Positions 4,683 to 62,183 of a stretch of 64,000 nt of DNA are shown here, piece after piece. The position numbers and the translations under genes were made by a program. The stretch's first letter is position 1; each line of letters begins with the position of its first letter. The notes under the pieces are model-generated. The model was not told the origin of the DNA. It did not search any database and was given only the letters and a program-made list of their open reading frames with translations. The DNA is from an uncultured Ruminococcus sp. (lineage in GTDB: Bacteria; Bacillota; Clostridia; Monoglobales; Monoglobaceae). The DNA is taken from positions 1 to 64,000 of the forward strand of contig CACWIG010000002.1 in assembly GCA_902760955.1 (NCBI GenBank), given 5' to 3'.

Positions 4683-5942
4683 CTACGCCTCCTTATATTC
4701 TGTAATATATCCCGTCAAGGCACTTGCCGCCGCCGTATACGGCGATGCCAGATACACCTCACTGTCAACGTGACCCATTCTGCCTACAAAGTTACGGTTT
4801 GTGGTAGCAATACATCTCTCGCCTGCCGCCAATATACCCATATAACCGCCAAGACACGGACCGCAGGTGGGAGTGGAAACAACCGCCCCTGCGTCCATAA
4901 ACGCTGTCACGTATCCGCGTTCTACACATTCACGCATTATCTGCATCGTGGCAGGAATTATGATACAGCGAACTCCGTCAGCAATTTTCTTGCCCTTGAG
5001 TATTTTATATGCTGCCTCCATATCCTCCATTCTGCCGTTTGTACAACTGCCTATTACAACCTGGTCAATCTTTATGTCAGATAATGTATCCGCAGGCTTT
5101 GTATTTTCAGGCAAATGCGGACAGCTGACTGTTGGGGTAATCTCAGACAAATCTATGTCGATTGTCTTTTCATATTCCGCATCGCTGTCTGCCTCATAGG
5201 TTACAGGTGTGCGTTCACATCTGTCCTTCATATATTCTATCGTCACATCATCAACGGGGAATATTCCGTTTTTGGCACCTGCCTCTATTGCCATATTGCA
5301 TATACAAAGACGGTCGTCCATAGTCAGATTCTTAACTCCGTCACCTGTGAACTCCATACTCTTATACAAAGCACCGTCAACACCTATCATACCGATTATT
5401 GTCAATATAACATCTTTACCGCTGCAATTTGACGGGAGCTTGCCCGTTAAGTTAAATCTGATAGCAGACGGCACCTTGAACCAAGCCATACCCGTTGCCA
5501 TACCTGCCGCCATATCCGTACTTCCCACACCTGTTGAGAAAGCACCTAAAGCGCCGTATGTACAAGTGTGGCTATCAGCGCCTATAATGCAATCGCCTGC
5601 TGTTACAACCCCTTGCTCAGGCAGAAGAGCGTGTTCTATACCCATCTTGCCCACATCATAAAAGTGGCTTATGCAATGAGAGCAAGCAAACTCTCTGCAT
5701 GTTTTGGATTGCTCTGCCGCCTTAATATCCTTGTTAGGAACAAAATGGTCAAGTACTATTGCAACTCTGTCTTTGTCAAATACCTTATCAAAACTTGCTT
5801 TTTTAAACTCATTCACCGCAACGGGAGTTGTAATATCGTTTCCGAGAACGATATCGAGTTTTGCATTTATAAGCTGTCCTGCCGTAACGCTGTCAAGTCC
5901 TGCGTGAGCGGCAAGTATTTTTTGAGTCATTGTCATTCCCAT
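4683..5942 (-). CDS. leuC: 3-isopropylmalate dehydratase large subunit
   Basis: Aconitase-family subunit that, with LeuD, isomerises 2- to 3-isopropylmalate. Cluster ligands are visible as C300 (GSCTNGR) and C360/C363 (TCGPCLGG); 419 residues match the short archaeal/clostridial branch. I place the start at ATG 5940-5942, six bases after GGAG. The frame extends upstream to a GTG that would add [11 protein letters not shown], but that extension is encoded by a repeated structured element also found before dapF, where the same peptide would be added to an unrelated enzyme, so it is judged non-coding. The element fills the 179 bp after leuA and may control translation here. Confidence 0.95.
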
Positions 5943-6125
5943 AAAAATCTCCATTCCGCCGCCTTGCGTCGGCACAAATAGTAATTAAATTTATCTCTTA
6001 TCCGCAAGGCAATGGAATGATAAGAGATTTTTCGCACATCGCCGTTTCGCATTTTAAATGCGAAAATTTCGGCGGTGCCATTTAATCCGCCGGAGGCATT
6101 AACGTGAAAGGAACTTTCACGTTAA
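5943..6125 (-). promoter_or_regulatory. Structured leader element, copy 1 (leuC)
   Basis: This 183-nt region between the leuA stop and the leuC start matches 60144-60325 upstream of dapF. Read on the minus strand it holds: a 10-bp hairpin (arms 6114-6123 and 6101-6110); an invariant GCCUCCGGCGGA (6097-6086); a helix pairing 6078-6070 with 6044-6034 (GCAC+CGCCG with CGGCG-AU-GUGC, AU bulged) capped by an inner hairpin; a 10-bp stem 6028-6019/6002-5993 whose 16-nt loop (6018-6003) is complementary to 5968-5952; and the Shine-Dalgarno GGAG (5952-5949). The loop-tail pairing would make a pseudoknot that abuts and touches the SD. I recognise no known riboswitch class; ligand and function are unknown. 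Confidence 0.8.
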
Positions 6126-7795
6126 CCCTTTATGTTGTTCATATTACGGAAGGCACTGAGCAGAGCATTCGCACTTGCGTGAATAATGTCTGTGTCGGTT
6201 CCTGCACCCCAGAACACTTCGCCTTCATCATTACGGATACCGATATACGCCGCCGCAACACTGCCCGAACCCTTATCTTTTAAAGTATGTTCGGTATATG
6301 TTTCAAGCAGATAGCTGCTCTTGGTAAACGCCTTTAACGCATTGCTTACCGCATCTAAAGAGCCGTTACCGAAGGCGTGAACTTTTTGTTCTTTTCCGTC
6401 ATATACAAACGTAATATCCGCCTCCATATTTCCGTCCTTATGATAAAAGTCCATATTTGCTATATCAAGCTTTGAAGATTTACGCATATAATTCTCTTTA
6501 AAGATATTATAAACCTCCTCAACCATCAGTTCCTTATGCTCCATATCAGAAATATGCTTACACAAGTAGCTCAAATGCTCACGCATTGGATTAGGAAGAG
6601 CATATCCGTAAACCTGTTCCAACAAATATCCTATTCCGCCCTTACCGCTTTGCGAATTAACACGGATAACGTCTGCATCATAGGTTCTGCTTATATCCTC
6701 AGGGTCTATGGGAATATACGGAACATTCCATTGAGTTGAGTTCTTTTCTTTTCTGTAGTTCATACCCTTTGCAATAGCGTCCTGATGACTGCCCGAGAAT
6801 GCTGCAAATACCAACGCACCTGCATAAGGCGTTCTCTCATAGACGTGCATACCCGTGCATTTTTCATACTTCTTAACAAGGGCAGGCATATCCGAAAAAT
6901 CAAGTTTCGGGTCAACCCCGTGTGAATACATATTCATGGCAAGTGTGATTATATCCACATTACCTGTTCTTTCACCATTACCGAACAGCGTTCCCTCTAC
7001 ACGGTCAGCACCTGCAAGAAGTGCAAGCTCGGTATCTGCAACACCTGTACCTCTGTCGTTGTGAGGGTGAAGTGAAATTGTTACATTCTCACGATACTTC
7101 AGGTTTTCACTCATATATTCAACCTGACTTGCGTAAATATGCGGCAAACTCATTTCAACTGTTACAGGCAAGTTAATAATAACATTGTTATCCTCTGACG
7201 GCTCAAGCACGTCAAGAACTGCGTTACAAACCTCTAATGCATATTCAGGCTCGGTACCTGTAAAACTTTCGGGCGAGTATTCAAATCTGAAGTTGCCCTC
7301 ATATTCTGCCGCAAGCTTTTTAACAAGCTTTGCTCCGTCGACTGCTATCTTTTTTATCTCCTCTTTGGACTTTCTGAAGACCTGCTCACGCTGTGCAACA
7401 CTTGTTGAATTATAGAAGTGTATAATCGCACTTGGTGCACCCTTGCAGGCATCAAATGTCTTTCTGATAATATGTTCACGGCATTGTGTCAAAACCTGAA
7501 CAGTAACATCTTCGGGAATCATATTATTATCTATAAGAGTTCTCAAAAACTCATATTCTGTTTCGCTGGCAGCAGGGAAGCCAACCTCTATTTCCTTAAA
7601 GCCTACCTGCAAAAGAGTTTTATAATATTCAAGTTTTTCATCAAGGCTCATCGGAATGACAAGGCTTTGGTTTCCGTCACGCATATCTACGCTACACCAA
7701 ACCGGTGGCTTTTCAATGTGGTCCTTTTCTACCCATTTCTTATAATTTCCCGGTGCGGGATAATATCCTATATTGTATTTGTTTGCATCCATCAT
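6122..7795 (-). CDS. leuA: 2-isopropylmalate synthase (LeuA2 type)
   Basis: Condenses acetyl-CoA with 2-oxoisovalerate, the committed step of leucine synthesis and the usual target of leucine feedback. The 557 residues include the TIM-barrel signature [10 protein letters not shown] (37-46), the metal-binding HPHND (243-247), the linker, and a C-terminal LeuA dimer/regulatory domain from about 430. The length and the start [12 protein letters not shown] match the yeast/mycobacterial-like LeuA2 group rather than the 510-residue E. coli type. ATG 7795 overlaps the ridA stop (ATGA), showing coupling. The stop codon runs directly into the hairpin that opens the structured leuC leader. Confidence 0.96.
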
Positions 7796-9426: not shown

Positions 9427-9471
9427 AAAACAAAAACACCCATCTCAAAGCCTAAAACTTTGAGACGGGTG
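9427..9471 (-). terminator. T-box-controlled terminator before ilvA
   Basis: On the minus strand a 14-bp stem (arms 9471-9458 and 9450-9437, one G-U) with a 7-nt loop is followed by UUUUUGUUUU. The upstream arm shares CUCAAAG with the T-box antiterminator, whose 5' arm UUUGAG precedes the UGGUACC bulge, so the two structures exclude each other. Confidence 0.93.
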
Positions 9472-9708
9472 TAATACTCTTTACACTCGCGGTACCACTC
9501 AAATTGCAGATACAAAACCTGCCACCTCTTCGAAGTCTACCAACCTCTATGCACTAACGTAGCATTCACGAGAACCCCTAATATTTATTTTCAGGGAACC
9601 AGCTCAGAAGTGAGAGGCCATTGAGAACAACCCATACCGATTTGCAGCAACCATCGGCTCTCTTCAAAGTTTTATCCTCGACCGTCTTCGTCACAGCCTT
9701 TAATTATT
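9427..9708 (-). promoter_or_regulatory. T-box riboswitch, probably leucine-specific
   Basis: The leader ahead of ilvA has the T-box sequence GAGUGGUACCGCG at 9500-9488. The antiterminator is UUUGAG, bulge UGGUACC, then GCG and GUGUAA pairing with UUACAC, CGU and CUCAAA. Stem I is recognisable (GUGACGAAGACG start, apical CCGAU/AUCGG hairpin, UCUGAGC end). At the place where the asnB T-box of this window has AAC, this one has CUC (9614-9612) followed by A, a leucine codon. The bulge UGGU pairs with an acceptor ending ACCA, as expected for tRNA-Leu. Uncharged tRNA would let transcription enter the operon. The specifier assignment is by alignment with the second T-box, not by a full fold. Confidence 0.92.
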
Positions 9709-56116: not shown

Positions 56117-56210
56117 ATAAAACGACAGAAGAAACAAATCGTTCAACATCGGGTGCGTATTTTATCACGATATGCGTAAAAGACAAAAAACAATTATTAT
56201 CAAAAATAAT

Positions 56211-56236
56211 CGTAGGGCAGGGGCTTGCTCCTGCCG
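56211..56236. repeat. REP-like palindrome inside transposase frame, unit 1
   Basis: GTAGGGCAGGGGCTTGCTCC+TGCC, same class as the second unit at 9.87 kb, here read in frame within the transposase. Confidence 0.75.
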
Positions 56237-56371
56237 AAAACCAATTAACCCAATATGGTAATGTCGCAAAAGAACAAATAGAATTATTGGAAAACCGATA
56301 TAACGGAATTAAAATTGATAAATATGTGATAATGCCTAATCATATACACATTTTAATTTCCTACGAAACAG

Positions 56372-56398
56372 CGGCAGGAGCAAGCCCCTGCCCTACAA
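56372..56398. repeat. REP-like palindrome inside transposase frame, unit 2
   Basis: CGGCAGGAGCAAGCCCCTGC+CCTAC, inverse orientation to unit 1, again keeping the frame open. Confidence 0.75.
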
Positions 56399-56593
56399 TA
56401 TCCGACATAATATGTGCATTTAAGTCCACAACAACAATATTGTGCAAAAAACAAGGGTTAAATGAAAAGCATTTATTTCAATCATCATTCTATGTCCACA
56501 TTATCCGTGGCGAAAAGGATTATCAAAAAATATGGGAATATATAGATACAAATGTGATAAGATGGAATAAAGATTGCTATTTCAACGATTAAA

Positions 56594-56621
56594 AGCGGGG
56601 CGATTCGTAAACCGCCCCTAC
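56594..56621 (-). repeat. REP-like palindrome, possible purF terminator
   Basis: GGGGCGG..CGCCCC type hairpin 28 bp beyond the purF stop; on the minus strand CUUUUAA follows, so it could end purF transcripts. Confidence 0.55.
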
Positions 56622-59294: not shown

Positions 59295-60143
59295 TTAAAT
59301 ATTAATACTTCCCGAAAATACCGTGACAGCTCCGCCTGTCATAGTAATTCCGTTTTCACCATAGCTAATTGTCAAATCTCCGCCTCTTAAGGTGACGGTG
59401 ACATCTGTGTCCATTTCGCAAAGTCCGCATTTACAAGCGGCGGCAACAGATGCACAAGCACCTGTTCCGCAGGCAAAGGTTTCGCCGCTTCCTCTCTCCC
59501 ATACACGCATTTCAAGATGAGTATTGTCAATCTTTTTGATAAATTCCGTATTAACTTTTTCAGGGAATATTTTGTCATTCTCTATCTTTTTGCCGACTGC
59601 CTCAATATCAAAATTCCATATATCAAAATCGTCGGGGACAAAGATTACACAGTGAGGATTACCCATACTTACACAGGTTATTGTTCTGTCCTCTCCGCCC
59701 ACAAAAACTTTTTTATTGATAATCGGCTTATCTCCGTTGTCGATTACAGGAATTAGTGCAGGCTCGTAAACGGGAATACCCATATCTACTGAGGCACTGC
59801 AATCCTCGCCGTCAAAATGCAAATTAATTGTTTTTATTCCCGAAAGAGTTTCAATCTTAAGGGGGTTGTTTAAGCTGATTTTGTTATCGTGAACAAAGCG
59901 TGCCACACAACGTATTCCGTTGCCGCACATTTTACCCTCACTTCCGTCTGCGTTGAACATACGCATTTTTGCATCTGCAACGCTTGATGGGCAGACGATA
60001 ATAAGACCGTCTGCCCCTATGCCAAAGTGCCTGTCAGATACTGTAACCGCAAGCTCGTTTGGATTTTCTATATTATATTCAAAACCGTTAACATAGACGT
60101 AGTCATTGCCACACCCGTGCATCTTGGTAAAATTCAAATCCAT
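59295..60143 (-). CDS. dapF: Diaminopimelate epimerase
   Basis: Interconverts LL- and meso-DAP with two cysteines acting as acid and base. Both are visible: MCGNGIRCVARF and ETFACGTGACASVAA; the start FTKMHGCGNDYVYV is canonical. 282 residues from ATG 60143, six bases after GGAG. Upstream GTG 60176 would add [11 protein letters not shown], identical in its first ten residues to the possible leuC extension; it arises from the shared leader element and is judged non-coding. The element (60144-60325) separates it from asnB. Confidence 0.96.
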   Translation of the reverse strand: MDLNFTKMHGCGNDYVYVNGFEYNIENPNELAVTVSDRHFGIGADGLIIVCPSSVADAKMRMFNADGSEGKMCGNGIRCVARFVHDNKISLNNPLKIETLSGIKTINLHFDGEDCSASVDMGIPVYEPALIPVIDNGDKPIINKKVFVGGEDRTITCVSMGNPHCVIFVPDDFDIWNFDIEAVGKKIENDKIFPEKVNTEFIKKIDNTHLEMRVWERGSGETFACGTGACASVAAACKCGLCEMDTDVTVTLRGGDLTISYGENGITMTGGAVTVFSGSINI

Positions 60144-60325
60144 AATAATCTCCATTCCGCCGCCCTGCGTCGGCACAAATAGTAATTAAATTTCTCTTAT
60201 CCGCAGGGCAAGGAATGATAAGAGATTATTACGCCCATGTGCGTTTCCGAAGGCTTGCCGAGGAAAATTTCGCACGGGCAATTAATTCCGCCGGAGGCAT
60301 AACGTGAAATGAACTTTCACGTTAT
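60144..60325 (-). promoter_or_regulatory. Structured leader element, copy 2 (dapF)
   Basis: A 182-nt homologue of 5943-6125. On the minus strand: 9-bp hairpin (60323-60315/60309-60301), GCCUCCGGCGGA, helix 60279-60271 with 60243-60233 (GCCC+GUGCG with CGCAC-AU-GGGC, same AU bulge), an inner hairpin of unrelated sequence, stem 60224-60217/60201-60194 with a 15-nt loop (60216-60202) complementary to 60169-60153, and SD GGAG (60153-60150). Compared with copy 1 the helix changes four base pairs, all compensated (A-U to C-G, C-G to G-C twice, G-C to U-A), and the loop-tail pairing has one (U-A to C-G). Confidence 0.8.
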
Positions 60326-60338
60326 GCTCCATTCCTTT

Positions 60339-61916
60339 TTATTTTCCGCTGTCGCCATAGTTCGAGAGAACTCGTGCCGACGGGTCATTTACATCACAGC
60401 CCTCCCAAGCCTTGTTGGGCATCCAGAAGTCAACAACCATTTCACTTTGATTTGGATAATACTTTTCAAAGATTTCACGATATAAAAGGGACTCCTTGGT
60501 GAACGGAACTGCGTGTGTATATTTCTGTATTTTTTCAGCGTATTCGCTGTCGGTGTAGTAGTTCTTAGCGTATTCCTGAAGATACCACACCATTGAATGT
60601 CCCACAGCATCCGAAAATGCCGCCTTTTCACGATACAAAATATCGTGGGGGAGATAGTCACCCTCAAAAGCGTGACGGAGCAAGTATTTACCCTTGCCGT
60701 ATTTGTTAAGTTTCTTTTCGGGGTCGATTGACATTACGTATTCAACAAAATCCAAATCACCGAAAGGTACACGTGCTTCCAAAGAGTTTACGGATATACA
60801 TCTGTCTGCACGCAGAACATCATACATATGAAGCTCTCTGACTCTCTTTTGCGACTCCTTTTGAAATTCCTCGGCAGATGGAGCAAAGTCGGTGTACTTA
60901 TAGCCAAACAATTCATCAGAAATCTCGCCTGTCAACAGAACTCGAATATCGGTGTTCTCGTGTATATATTTACATAAGAGATACATACCCATGCTTGCAC
61001 GGATAGTTGTAATATCATATGTGCCAAGCAGGTGAATTACATCATCAAGAGCCTCTAAAACATCGTCCTTAGTAATGATAACTTCTGTGTGGTCACTGCC
61101 GATATAGTCGGCAACCTGCTTTGCGTATTTTAAGTCAATGGCGTCCTCGCTCATACCGATTGCAAATGTTCTGATAGGCTTATCACTCTTTCTTGCGGCA
61201 ACTGCACATACCAGCGAAGAATCAAGACCACCTGAGAGAAGATAACCAACCTTTGCATCTGCCACAAGTCTTTTTTCTATGCCCGCAACAAGTTTGGTAT
61301 GAATTTTATCGCATATTGTTTCTAAATCGTCATAGCAAACCTCTTTAACGGCTGTCATATCACGATAGCATACAAATTTTCCGTCCTTGTAATAATGACC
61401 CGGGGGGAAGGGCATTACTTTATCGCATATGTCAATAAGGTTTTTCGCCTCGCTGGCAAAAACAATAACACCGTCTTTATCATAGCCGTAATATAAAGGT
61501 CTGATACCAATGGGGTCACGTGCGGCAATAAACCCGCCTGTCTTTGCATCATAGATTATCAATGCATATTCCGCGTCCAACTTTCCAAACATATCCGTGC
61601 CGTACTCCTTATACATAGGAAGAAGTATCTCGCAGTCAGAGTCGCTTTTAAAGGTATATTTAGCGGAAAGCTCCTTCTTTATTGCATCAAAGCCATAGAT
61701 TTCACCATTGCAAACAACATAGCTTCCGTCTAATTCAAAGGGTTGCATACCTGCTTCGGTAAGTCCCATAATAGCCAATCTGTGAAATCCCAGAAGGCCG
61801 TTGCCTGTGTCGATAATTCTCGAATCATCAGGACCTCTTGAAATAGTCCTTTCAAATCCTTTCTTAAACAAATCAAGAGTGGCACTGCTGCCACAATATC
61901 CCATAACAGAACACAT
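60339..61916 (-). CDS. asnB: Asparagine synthase (glutamine-hydrolysing)
   Basis: Makes asparagine from aspartate and glutamine. N-terminal Ntn glutaminase with nucleophile Cys2 (MCSVMGYCGSSA), RGPDDS and CNGEIYG; C-terminal synthetase with PP-loop SGGLDSS and GEISDELFGY. 525 residues. ATG 61916 puts Cys at position 2, with GGAGG nine bases upstream; an in-frame TTG at 61931 lies in the ribosome site. An Asn T-box precedes it. It reads through into dapF. Confidence 0.95.
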   Translation of the reverse strand: MCSVMGYCGSSATLDLFKKGFERTISRGPDDSRIIDTGNGLLGFHRLAIMGLTEAGMQPFELDGSYVVCNGEIYGFDAIKKELSAKYTFKSDSDCEILLPMYKEYGTDMFGKLDAEYALIIYDAKTGGFIAARDPIGIRPLYYGYDKDGVIVFASEAKNLIDICDKVMPFPPGHYYKDGKFVCYRDMTAVKEVCYDDLETICDKIHTKLVAGIEKRLVADAKVGYLLSGGLDSSLVCAVAARKSDKPIRTFAIGMSEDAIDLKYAKQVADYIGSDHTEVIITKDDVLEALDDVIHLLGTYDITTIRASMGMYLLCKYIHENTDIRVLLTGEISDELFGYKYTDFAPSAEEFQKESQKRVRELHMYDVLRADRCISVNSLEARVPFGDLDFVEYVMSIDPEKKLNKYGKGKYLLRHAFEGDYLPHDILYREKAAFSDAVGHSMVWYLQEYAKNYYTDSEYAEKIQKYTHAVPFTKESLLYREIFEKYYPNQSEMVVDFWMPNKAWEGCDVNDPSARVLSNYGDSGK

Positions 61917-61931
61917 ACTAAATTCCTCCAA

Positions 61932-62173
61932 AAATAAAATTCAGCTATATCCATAGGGCAAGTGCTGTAACCTGCGGTGCCACCTATTTTTATACTAACG
62001 GCTTCTGTCAAAGCCTTGCTAACTGACGTGTAGCATAACGGCGTGCCTACTTGAGCAACTGCTCTTTCGGTTTGCAGCTCATTGGGTGTTATTCATACGG
62101 ACTCTGCTATATGGCTCTCACCATCCCATACTCGCTGTGAGCGAACTTCCGTATTACTTATCCCAATTCAAAC
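61932..62173 (-). promoter_or_regulatory. T-box riboswitch for asparagine
   Basis: Stem I: base GUUUG/CAAAC (62173-62169, 62074-62070), then UUGGG/CCCAA (62166-62162, 62086-62082) across a kink-turn-like internal loop, then AUACGGA/UCCGUAU. The specifier loop reads GAAU-AAC-A with AAC (62090-62088), an Asn codon, facing AUAAGUA. The antiterminator is AUAGG, bulge UGGCACC (T-box 61985-61974), GCAGG pairing CUUGC and CCUAU. The bulge UGGC matches an acceptor ending GCCA, as in tRNA-Asn. No strong U-tract terminator is seen before the SD, so control may be translational. It begins only 11 nt after the amt stop. Confidence 0.92.
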
Positions 62174-62183
62174 GCTTTTAAAA

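Follow-up and report, generated by a model that had tools for sequence, protein, structure and literature searches.

The closest described relatives of the element reported here are insertion sequences of the IS110 family, whose bridge RNAs are programmable recombination systems. The described examples IS621 and ISEc21 (PMC11208160, PMC11187229) have a recombinase with DEDD_Tnp_IS110 and Transposase_20 domains and a long non-coding region 5' of its gene, and the RNA of this region, called bridge RNA or seekRNA, has an internal loop that matches the insertion site. No target duplication is seen, and the known targets are repetitive extragenic palindromic (REP) sequences or other specific sites. 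Non-autonomous forms are absent from the main text of both papers, and the words 'start codon' appear in one methods sentence only. Here we describe a short repeat that occurs before dapF and again before leuC in a stretch of 64,000 nucleotides (the window) from an uncultured Ruminococcus sp. of the Monoglobaceae (assembly GCA_902760955.1, contig CACWIG010000002.1, positions 1 to 64,000 of the forward strand). We consider it likely that these copies are a non-autonomous mobile element, kin to a clade of IS110 transposons that inserts between the Shine-Dalgarno (SD) sequence and the start codon of genes. Its recombinase and the layout of its RNA place the complete element in the IS110 family, and it shows the same absence of a visible target duplication. 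It differs from the characterised members in that its target is a translation start, with a putative guide holding the complement of the start codon, in that a replacement SD is carried in the element's end, and in its abundant miniature forms that lack the recombinase.

Other systems also invite comparison. The IS1111 group shares with our element a subterminal inverted repeat (here GTGTGAAAG ... CTTTCATTAC) and, probably, an RNA-guided choice of target, but its guide RNA lies 3' of the recombinase gene, whereas the non-coding region here is upstream, as in IS110. REP sequences are likewise non-coding hairpin repeats scattered over a genome, and a resident RAYT transposase moves them in trans, as a transposase may do here; however, they carry GTAG/CTAC and are generally intergenic, whereas the present elements stand only at start codons and bring an SD. 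Mycobacterial interspersed repetitive units are short sense repeats at the junctions of translation stops and starts inside operons, likewise as here. We know of no sequence kinship between those units and this element, nor of a transposase for them. A literature search, necessarily partial, returned no description of this start-codon repeat.

A repeat family in front of start codons

The dapF and leuC copies are 82% identical across 181 nt in a sequence search (E=1e-43). Both are real and lie on the minus strand, and each contains a GTG in frame with the gene, as the sequence-only reading of this DNA had stated. That reading took the dapF copy for the second of a pair, yet the genome of the window holds at least six copies that are nearly complete, besides about ten that are truncated. 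Matches to the element (E<=0.001) were found in five genomes of the genus, 14-39 in four of the five and 12 in the fifth, with up to 97% identity between loci. Among 68 distinct copies bearing the right end, 65 stand directly before an ATG or GTG start codon and three in front of another copy in tandem, and all 68 have the sense orientation; for this count six rows left unclassified by the program were sorted by eye. The genes behind the copies, named from their N-terminal sequences, include those for HPr, PurA, Frr, RecJ, TrpF, RnfD, NAD kinase, glycosyltransferases and SLH proteins. As these downstream genes are functionally unrelated, the family is not a regulon, and we rejected that idea. 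For the same reason a leader RNA dedicated to T-box operons, as first proposed, does not describe the repeat.

For twelve filled sites the two flanks were joined and compared with the genomes of the genus, which revealed orthologous empty sites. At the clearest of these the filled site in genome G002 reads aaaaaggagcaaaa, element, ATTTATG and the empty site in G000 reads aaaaaggagcaaaacattATG, with flanks 97% identical; three further empty sites have flanks at 85-91% identity, and another is found at leuC in G004. Comparison of filled with empty sites places the old SD to the left of the element and the ATG to its right, with the element's own GGAATGGAG now in the SD position. The element inserts between the old SD and the ATG. 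Its presence or absence at orthologous sites, together with near-identical dispersed copies, indicates mobility. The repeat family and the empty sites support what the sequence-only reading had raised as an alternative, a structured mobile element with a GGAATGGAG ribosome site of its own. Its insertion is not simply 'between genes', as that reading put it: the element lands behind the old SD and in front of the start codon.

The right end is also found beyond the genus. Among the matches listed, the 17-mer GCGGCGGAATGGAGATT occurs on more than 100 genome contigs, mostly of Lachnospiraceae and Oscillospiraceae. Also among the matches listed, exact right-end matches in Clostridia have an ATG exactly 3 nt downstream in 98 of 117 distinct cases, and in 91 of these 98 the ATG opens a reading frame that is 50 codons or longer or reaches the end of the contig (chance 0.6% per position). 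An extended right-end pattern was found in 9 of 391 Clostridia genomes and its reversed control in none. The interiors of the elements are highly variable, down to minis of 50 nt, and both ends are constant.

Several copies are arranged in tandem (L184 949-1301; L002; L044; L083; L223), the newer copy directly behind the GGAATGGAG of the older one, so the element's own SD can itself serve as a target. The GGAATGGAG to the left of the dapF copy (Table 1) is possibly a remnant of an earlier copy. Other interior types were also seen between the same ends. Copies in G294, G343 and G060 (L231, L224, L230 and others) have a rod-like hairpin of about 170 nt (AAGCGGCGCATCTCGCCC...GGGCAATCTGCTTGCTT), unrelated in sequence to the window type, and a Lachnospiraceae interior of about 240 nt (L126 3987-4240, L067, L057) reads GGCTCACA..GTGAACC, CACCTGCACATCAACA..GGGTGGGTGCATCTGA and has no transposase.

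Relationship to complete IS110 transposons

Complete transposons with these ends occur in Lachnospiraceae. On a Roseburia plasmid and on prophage contigs an IS110-family transposase gene lies between the two ends, and its product matches the Pfam domains DEDD_Tnp_IS110 (PF01548, 79 bits) and Transposase_20 (PF02371, 71 bits). Both ends are present in relatives at 97, 95, 82 and 72% protein identity (L310-L313), and a relative at 69% (L314) has the left end only, the right end being missing. The window-type and IS110 ends are homologous, with an identical ATTACTATTTGTGCCG ... GGCGGCGGAATGGAGATT and a left end of TAACGTGAAAG in the former versus TAGTGTGAAAG in the latter.

The non-coding region upstream of the transposase gene holds the motif CAT-NNN-AATC. 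Outside the element, the flanking bases are CAT (the start codon) and NNN, after which comes the AATC of the element. The triplets of this motif and of the flank agree in 11 of 12 independent IS110 copies (permutation mean 2.4; 0 of 200,000 permutations reach 11, P<1e-5), and they agree in an additional copy, L360. RNAalifold predicts two conserved stems separated by an internal loop, one strand of which is CAUNNNAAUC. The target-binding loop of bridge RNAs has the same layout, with a left guide identical to the left target (PMC11208160). Judged from sequence and predicted fold, the CAT-NNN-AATC loop probably represents the target guide of an IS110 bridge RNA, complementary to the target.

The guide reads the flank outside the repeat, and therefore the outer ends of the repeat are the transposon's own ends. 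We had at first read the IS110s as invaders of the repeat's hairpin loop, and the match of the guide to the outer flank reversed this. In a version of that idea the IS110s merely use a repeat that was already there, in the way that IS621 uses REPs, while something else moves the repeat. This would account for the position of the IS110 inside what would be the loop of a hairpin between left and right ends, and for a genus that has the repeat but no intact IS110. It does not account for the covarying CAT-NNN match outside the repeat or for the retention of ends among relatives down to 69% identity (in L314 the left end). More distant relatives in Enterococcus and Lactococcus, at 44-48% identity, also speak against it: they have different end sequences and still abut start codons (one of them GTG). 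We hold prey on a pre-existing repeat to be quite unlikely. In these Enterococcus and Lactococcus elements CATATTTATA-like segments match 9-10 of 10 flank bases.

One stem of the IS110 RNA contains GGAGG and might read the SD as a guide, but its register with real flanks is poor and we do not claim it. The phage collection gave no IS110 match of this clade. The IS110 genes in element-bearing genomes and in the wider order belong to other IS110 clades with other target sites. Some of the transposons of the order (L317, L318, L320, L323, L328, L330) adjoin GTATAAT-like sequences (cctGGTATAATG, cGTATAATATA), as if another clade targeted promoter -10 boxes.

Predicted fold and guide-like segments of the window-type element

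The window-type element has no transposase. Its fold across 38 copies has 44 consensus pairs, 15 of them with two-sided changes, and 97.6% of cells are paired. Inside the element, the segment NNN-AATCTC...CATTCC...GCCCTGC complements the right end together with the flanking triplet. Its own triplet covaries with the flank, being the exact complement in 42 of 53 window-type copies (permutation mean 27.3, maximum 38 in 100,000). A second segment, TGCCTCC behind the left-end hairpin, is complementary to the side of the old SD; in the dapF copy the 3' arm of the hairpin and this TGCCTCC together complement the old SD and the left end. Complementarity to the left flank is exact in single copies (L031, L033, L038, L087). 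These segments may be guides that the element still carries.

The same fold would be expected if the copies were cis-regulatory leaders forming a regulon, each a riboswitch or attenuator; before leuC and dapF a helix would then mask the ribosome site. The strength and conservation of the fold agree with this, as do the full pairing of the SD in both window copies, the invariably sense position directly before a start codon, and the location of both copies in amino-acid operons under T-boxes. But copies of up to 97% identity stand before unrelated genes and are present or absent at orthologous sites, the 50-nt minis and many interior types keep the ends alone, and complete IS110 transposons are bounded by those ends. 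A search of Rfam with the window and five copy types (E<=1) likewise found nothing for the element, and only T-box, tRNA and cobalamin matches elsewhere. A leader of this kind is in our view unlikely; a regulatory side-effect may nevertheless have arisen after insertion.

Several observations weigh against our preferred reading, that of a mobile element kin to IS110. The empty sites come from other species and not from sister strains, and the flanking triplet may be derived from the target or carried by the element. The filled and empty junctions fit either TA or AT as the core dinucleotide. In assemblies of the genus that are 80-98% complete, neither an intact IS110 of this clade nor a helper recombinase from it was found; the IS110 sequences seen there were decayed fragments that lack these ends. 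On the left side, where the old SD lies, the window-type element covaries weakly with its flank (P=0.005). Its guide-like segment is on the strand opposite to the guide of the complete IS110, and the two guides may therefore not be homologous. In the predicted leader fold the new SD is hidden by pairing, its unpaired probability being about 0 in both window copies; one strand of the predicted leuC and dapF leader helix is AAUAAUCUC...CAUUCC. Complementarity to both junctions also permits an intramolecular RNA helix that would cover the new SD together with the start codon. Such a helix may have a regulatory side-effect, or the complementarity may be purely structural.

The shared N-terminal extension of LeuC and DapF

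Both window copies contain GTG CCG ACG CAG/CAA GGC GGC GGA ATG GAG ATT nnn ATG in frame with the gene. Open reading frame callers extend both proteins identically because this GTG sits within the element's right end, giving calls of 59295..60176 for dapF and 4683..5975 for leuC. The sequence-only reading had argued that the decapeptide shared by these unrelated enzymes is not protein, and element-free relatives agree. In other genera of the family the DapF orthologues (L337, L339, L350, L356, L357) start at the ATG and have no in-frame MPTQGGG upstream, and LeuC of the element-free congener G004 begins MGMTMTQ directly behind an ordinary ribosome site. The extension arises as a by-product of the element's end.

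We give almost no credence to a genuine GTG start, by which the element would add ten residues to the protein in the manner of the palindromic elements in Rickettsia genes. The frame is open and the GTG is in frame in both copies, yet the element-free orthologues lack the extension, no SD precedes the GTG itself, and spacing variants shift the frame out of register. The dapF element of G003, a 90-nt version, also lacks the GTG-CCG-ACG-CAG segment.

Proposed mechanism of insertion

The complete relatives have both a gene for a DEDD/Transposase_20 recombinase and a non-coding region resembling a bridge RNA. One strand of its predicted loop, CAU-NNN-AAUC, holds the complement of the start codon and the adjacent three bases, and on this ground we infer that insertion is RNA-guided to start codons. 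The end that comes to lie next to the ATG brings GGAATGGAG at the proper spacing. The host gene would thus keep a ribosome site, with translation presumably proceeding from the new SD, and insertion would be tolerable even before essential genes. The window copies have both ends, and segments that complement both junctions, but no recombinase; an enzyme that was not found in this assembly would have mobilised them in trans.

It is tempting to go further, and we do so tentatively, at somewhat less than even confidence. A guide that includes the start-codon complement could turn the translation start of any gene into a target, with the element's end replacing the displaced ribosome site. Derivatives without the recombinase could keep the guide RNA, spread by tens of copies and perhaps make the captured genes translationally switchable through the fold over the new SD. 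If this is true, a natural lineage of IS110 has nearly every gene within reach and yet spares the host, to which it returns an SD. Such a lineage would account for a large family of dispersed repeats in gut Clostridia and for a source of wrong start-codon annotation, seen as identical false N-termini on unrelated proteins. The recombinase-less copies would be natural mini-donors, possibly with in-built guides, and redirection to other translation starts by changes in the guide would become a directly testable question.

Features of the window and other mobile elements

The features of the window are given in Table 1. The two operons are ordered T-box-ilvA-ridA-leuA-[element]-leuC and T-box-asnB-[element]-dapF-aminotransferase. 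A T-box does head each of them, as had been stated; leuA itself, however, is not directly behind one, since the first T-box precedes ilvA (PALP domain) and then a RidA-type gene. The T-box of asnB falls just under the cut-off, and default annotation would miss it. A start of both elements close behind the upstream stop codon had also been reported, and this stands for asnB; at leuA the stop codon is supplied by the first bases of the inserted element.

Table 1. Positions of the element copies, their parts and the surrounding genes in the window
Feature	Position	Strand	Remarks
dapF copy of the element	60147..60324	-	about 178 nt, probably non-autonomous; TAACGTGAAAG ... GGAATGGAGATT; then ATT + ATG at 60143
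leuC copy of the element	5946..6124	-	about 179 nt, variant interior; TAACGTGAAAG ... GGAATGGAGATT; then TTT + ATG at 5942
Left-end hairpin, dapF copy	60300..60324	-	TAACGTGAAAG-TTC-ATTTCACGTTA
Guide-like segment AATAATCTC, dapF copy	60222..60230	-	reverse complement of right junction GAGATT-ATT
Putative replacement ribosome-binding site GGAATGGAG at right end, dapF copy	60150..60158	-	
Putative replacement ribosome-binding site GGAATGGAG, leuC copy	5949..5957	-	
In-frame GTG region, dapF copy	60161..60178	-	source of the false MPTQGG extension
GGAATGGAG directly 5' of the dapF copy	60327..60335	-	SD left of the insertion; same as the element's own end
dapF (diaminopimelate epimerase)	59295..60143	-	true start ATG 60143-60141
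asnB, gene 5' of the dapF copy (Asn_synthase, GATase)	60339..61931	-	stop 15 nt upstream of the element
T-box leader of asnB	61951..62181	-	89 bits, below the Rfam gathering cut-off of 93
leuC (aconitase family)	4683..5942	-	true start ATG 5942-5940
leuA, gene 5' of the leuC copy	6122..7795	-	stop TAA (6122-6124) = first three bases of the element
T-box leader heading ilvA-ridA-leuA-leuC	9458..9703	-	RF00230, 94.6 bits
RAYT-like Y1 transposase gene (Pfam Y1_Tnp)	56130-56620		REP at 3' side

The window also has a Y1/RAYT gene at 56.1-56.6 kb, and the sequence-only reading had thought of an IS200/IS605-like element. Mobilisation by a transposase of the IS200/IS605 or REP/RAYT type, or by another, would suit end hairpins without terminal inverted repeats. 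However, the RAYT gene of the window is bounded by GTAG-type REPs of its own and not by the element's ends, which are those of the IS110-family clade. No Y1 protein was seen between the left and right ends, and two of the five element-bearing genomes have no Y1 match. The remaining Y1 transposases of the genus, two IS200-like genes in G001 only, were also set aside as mobilisers. The element is thus linked neither to a Y1 gene nor to a GTAG/CTAC motif, and we regard mobilisation of this type as very improbable. The reading frame of the RAYT-like gene contains REP-like palindromes (GTAGGGCAGGGGCTTGCTCCTGCC and its inverse).

Three contigs that end inside the element were considered as an autonomous version, and the joined sequence proved to be an unrelated miniature inverted-repeat transposable element of about 290 bp. 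With terminal inverted repeats (TAGGGTGAAAGTATAAAACCGAACC ... GGTTCGGATTTGTACTTTCACCCTA), it is present in G000 and congeners (L201 1501-1790, L207, L192). It has 20 matches in the genome of the window, and in three G003 contigs it lies inside the hairpin of the start-codon element.
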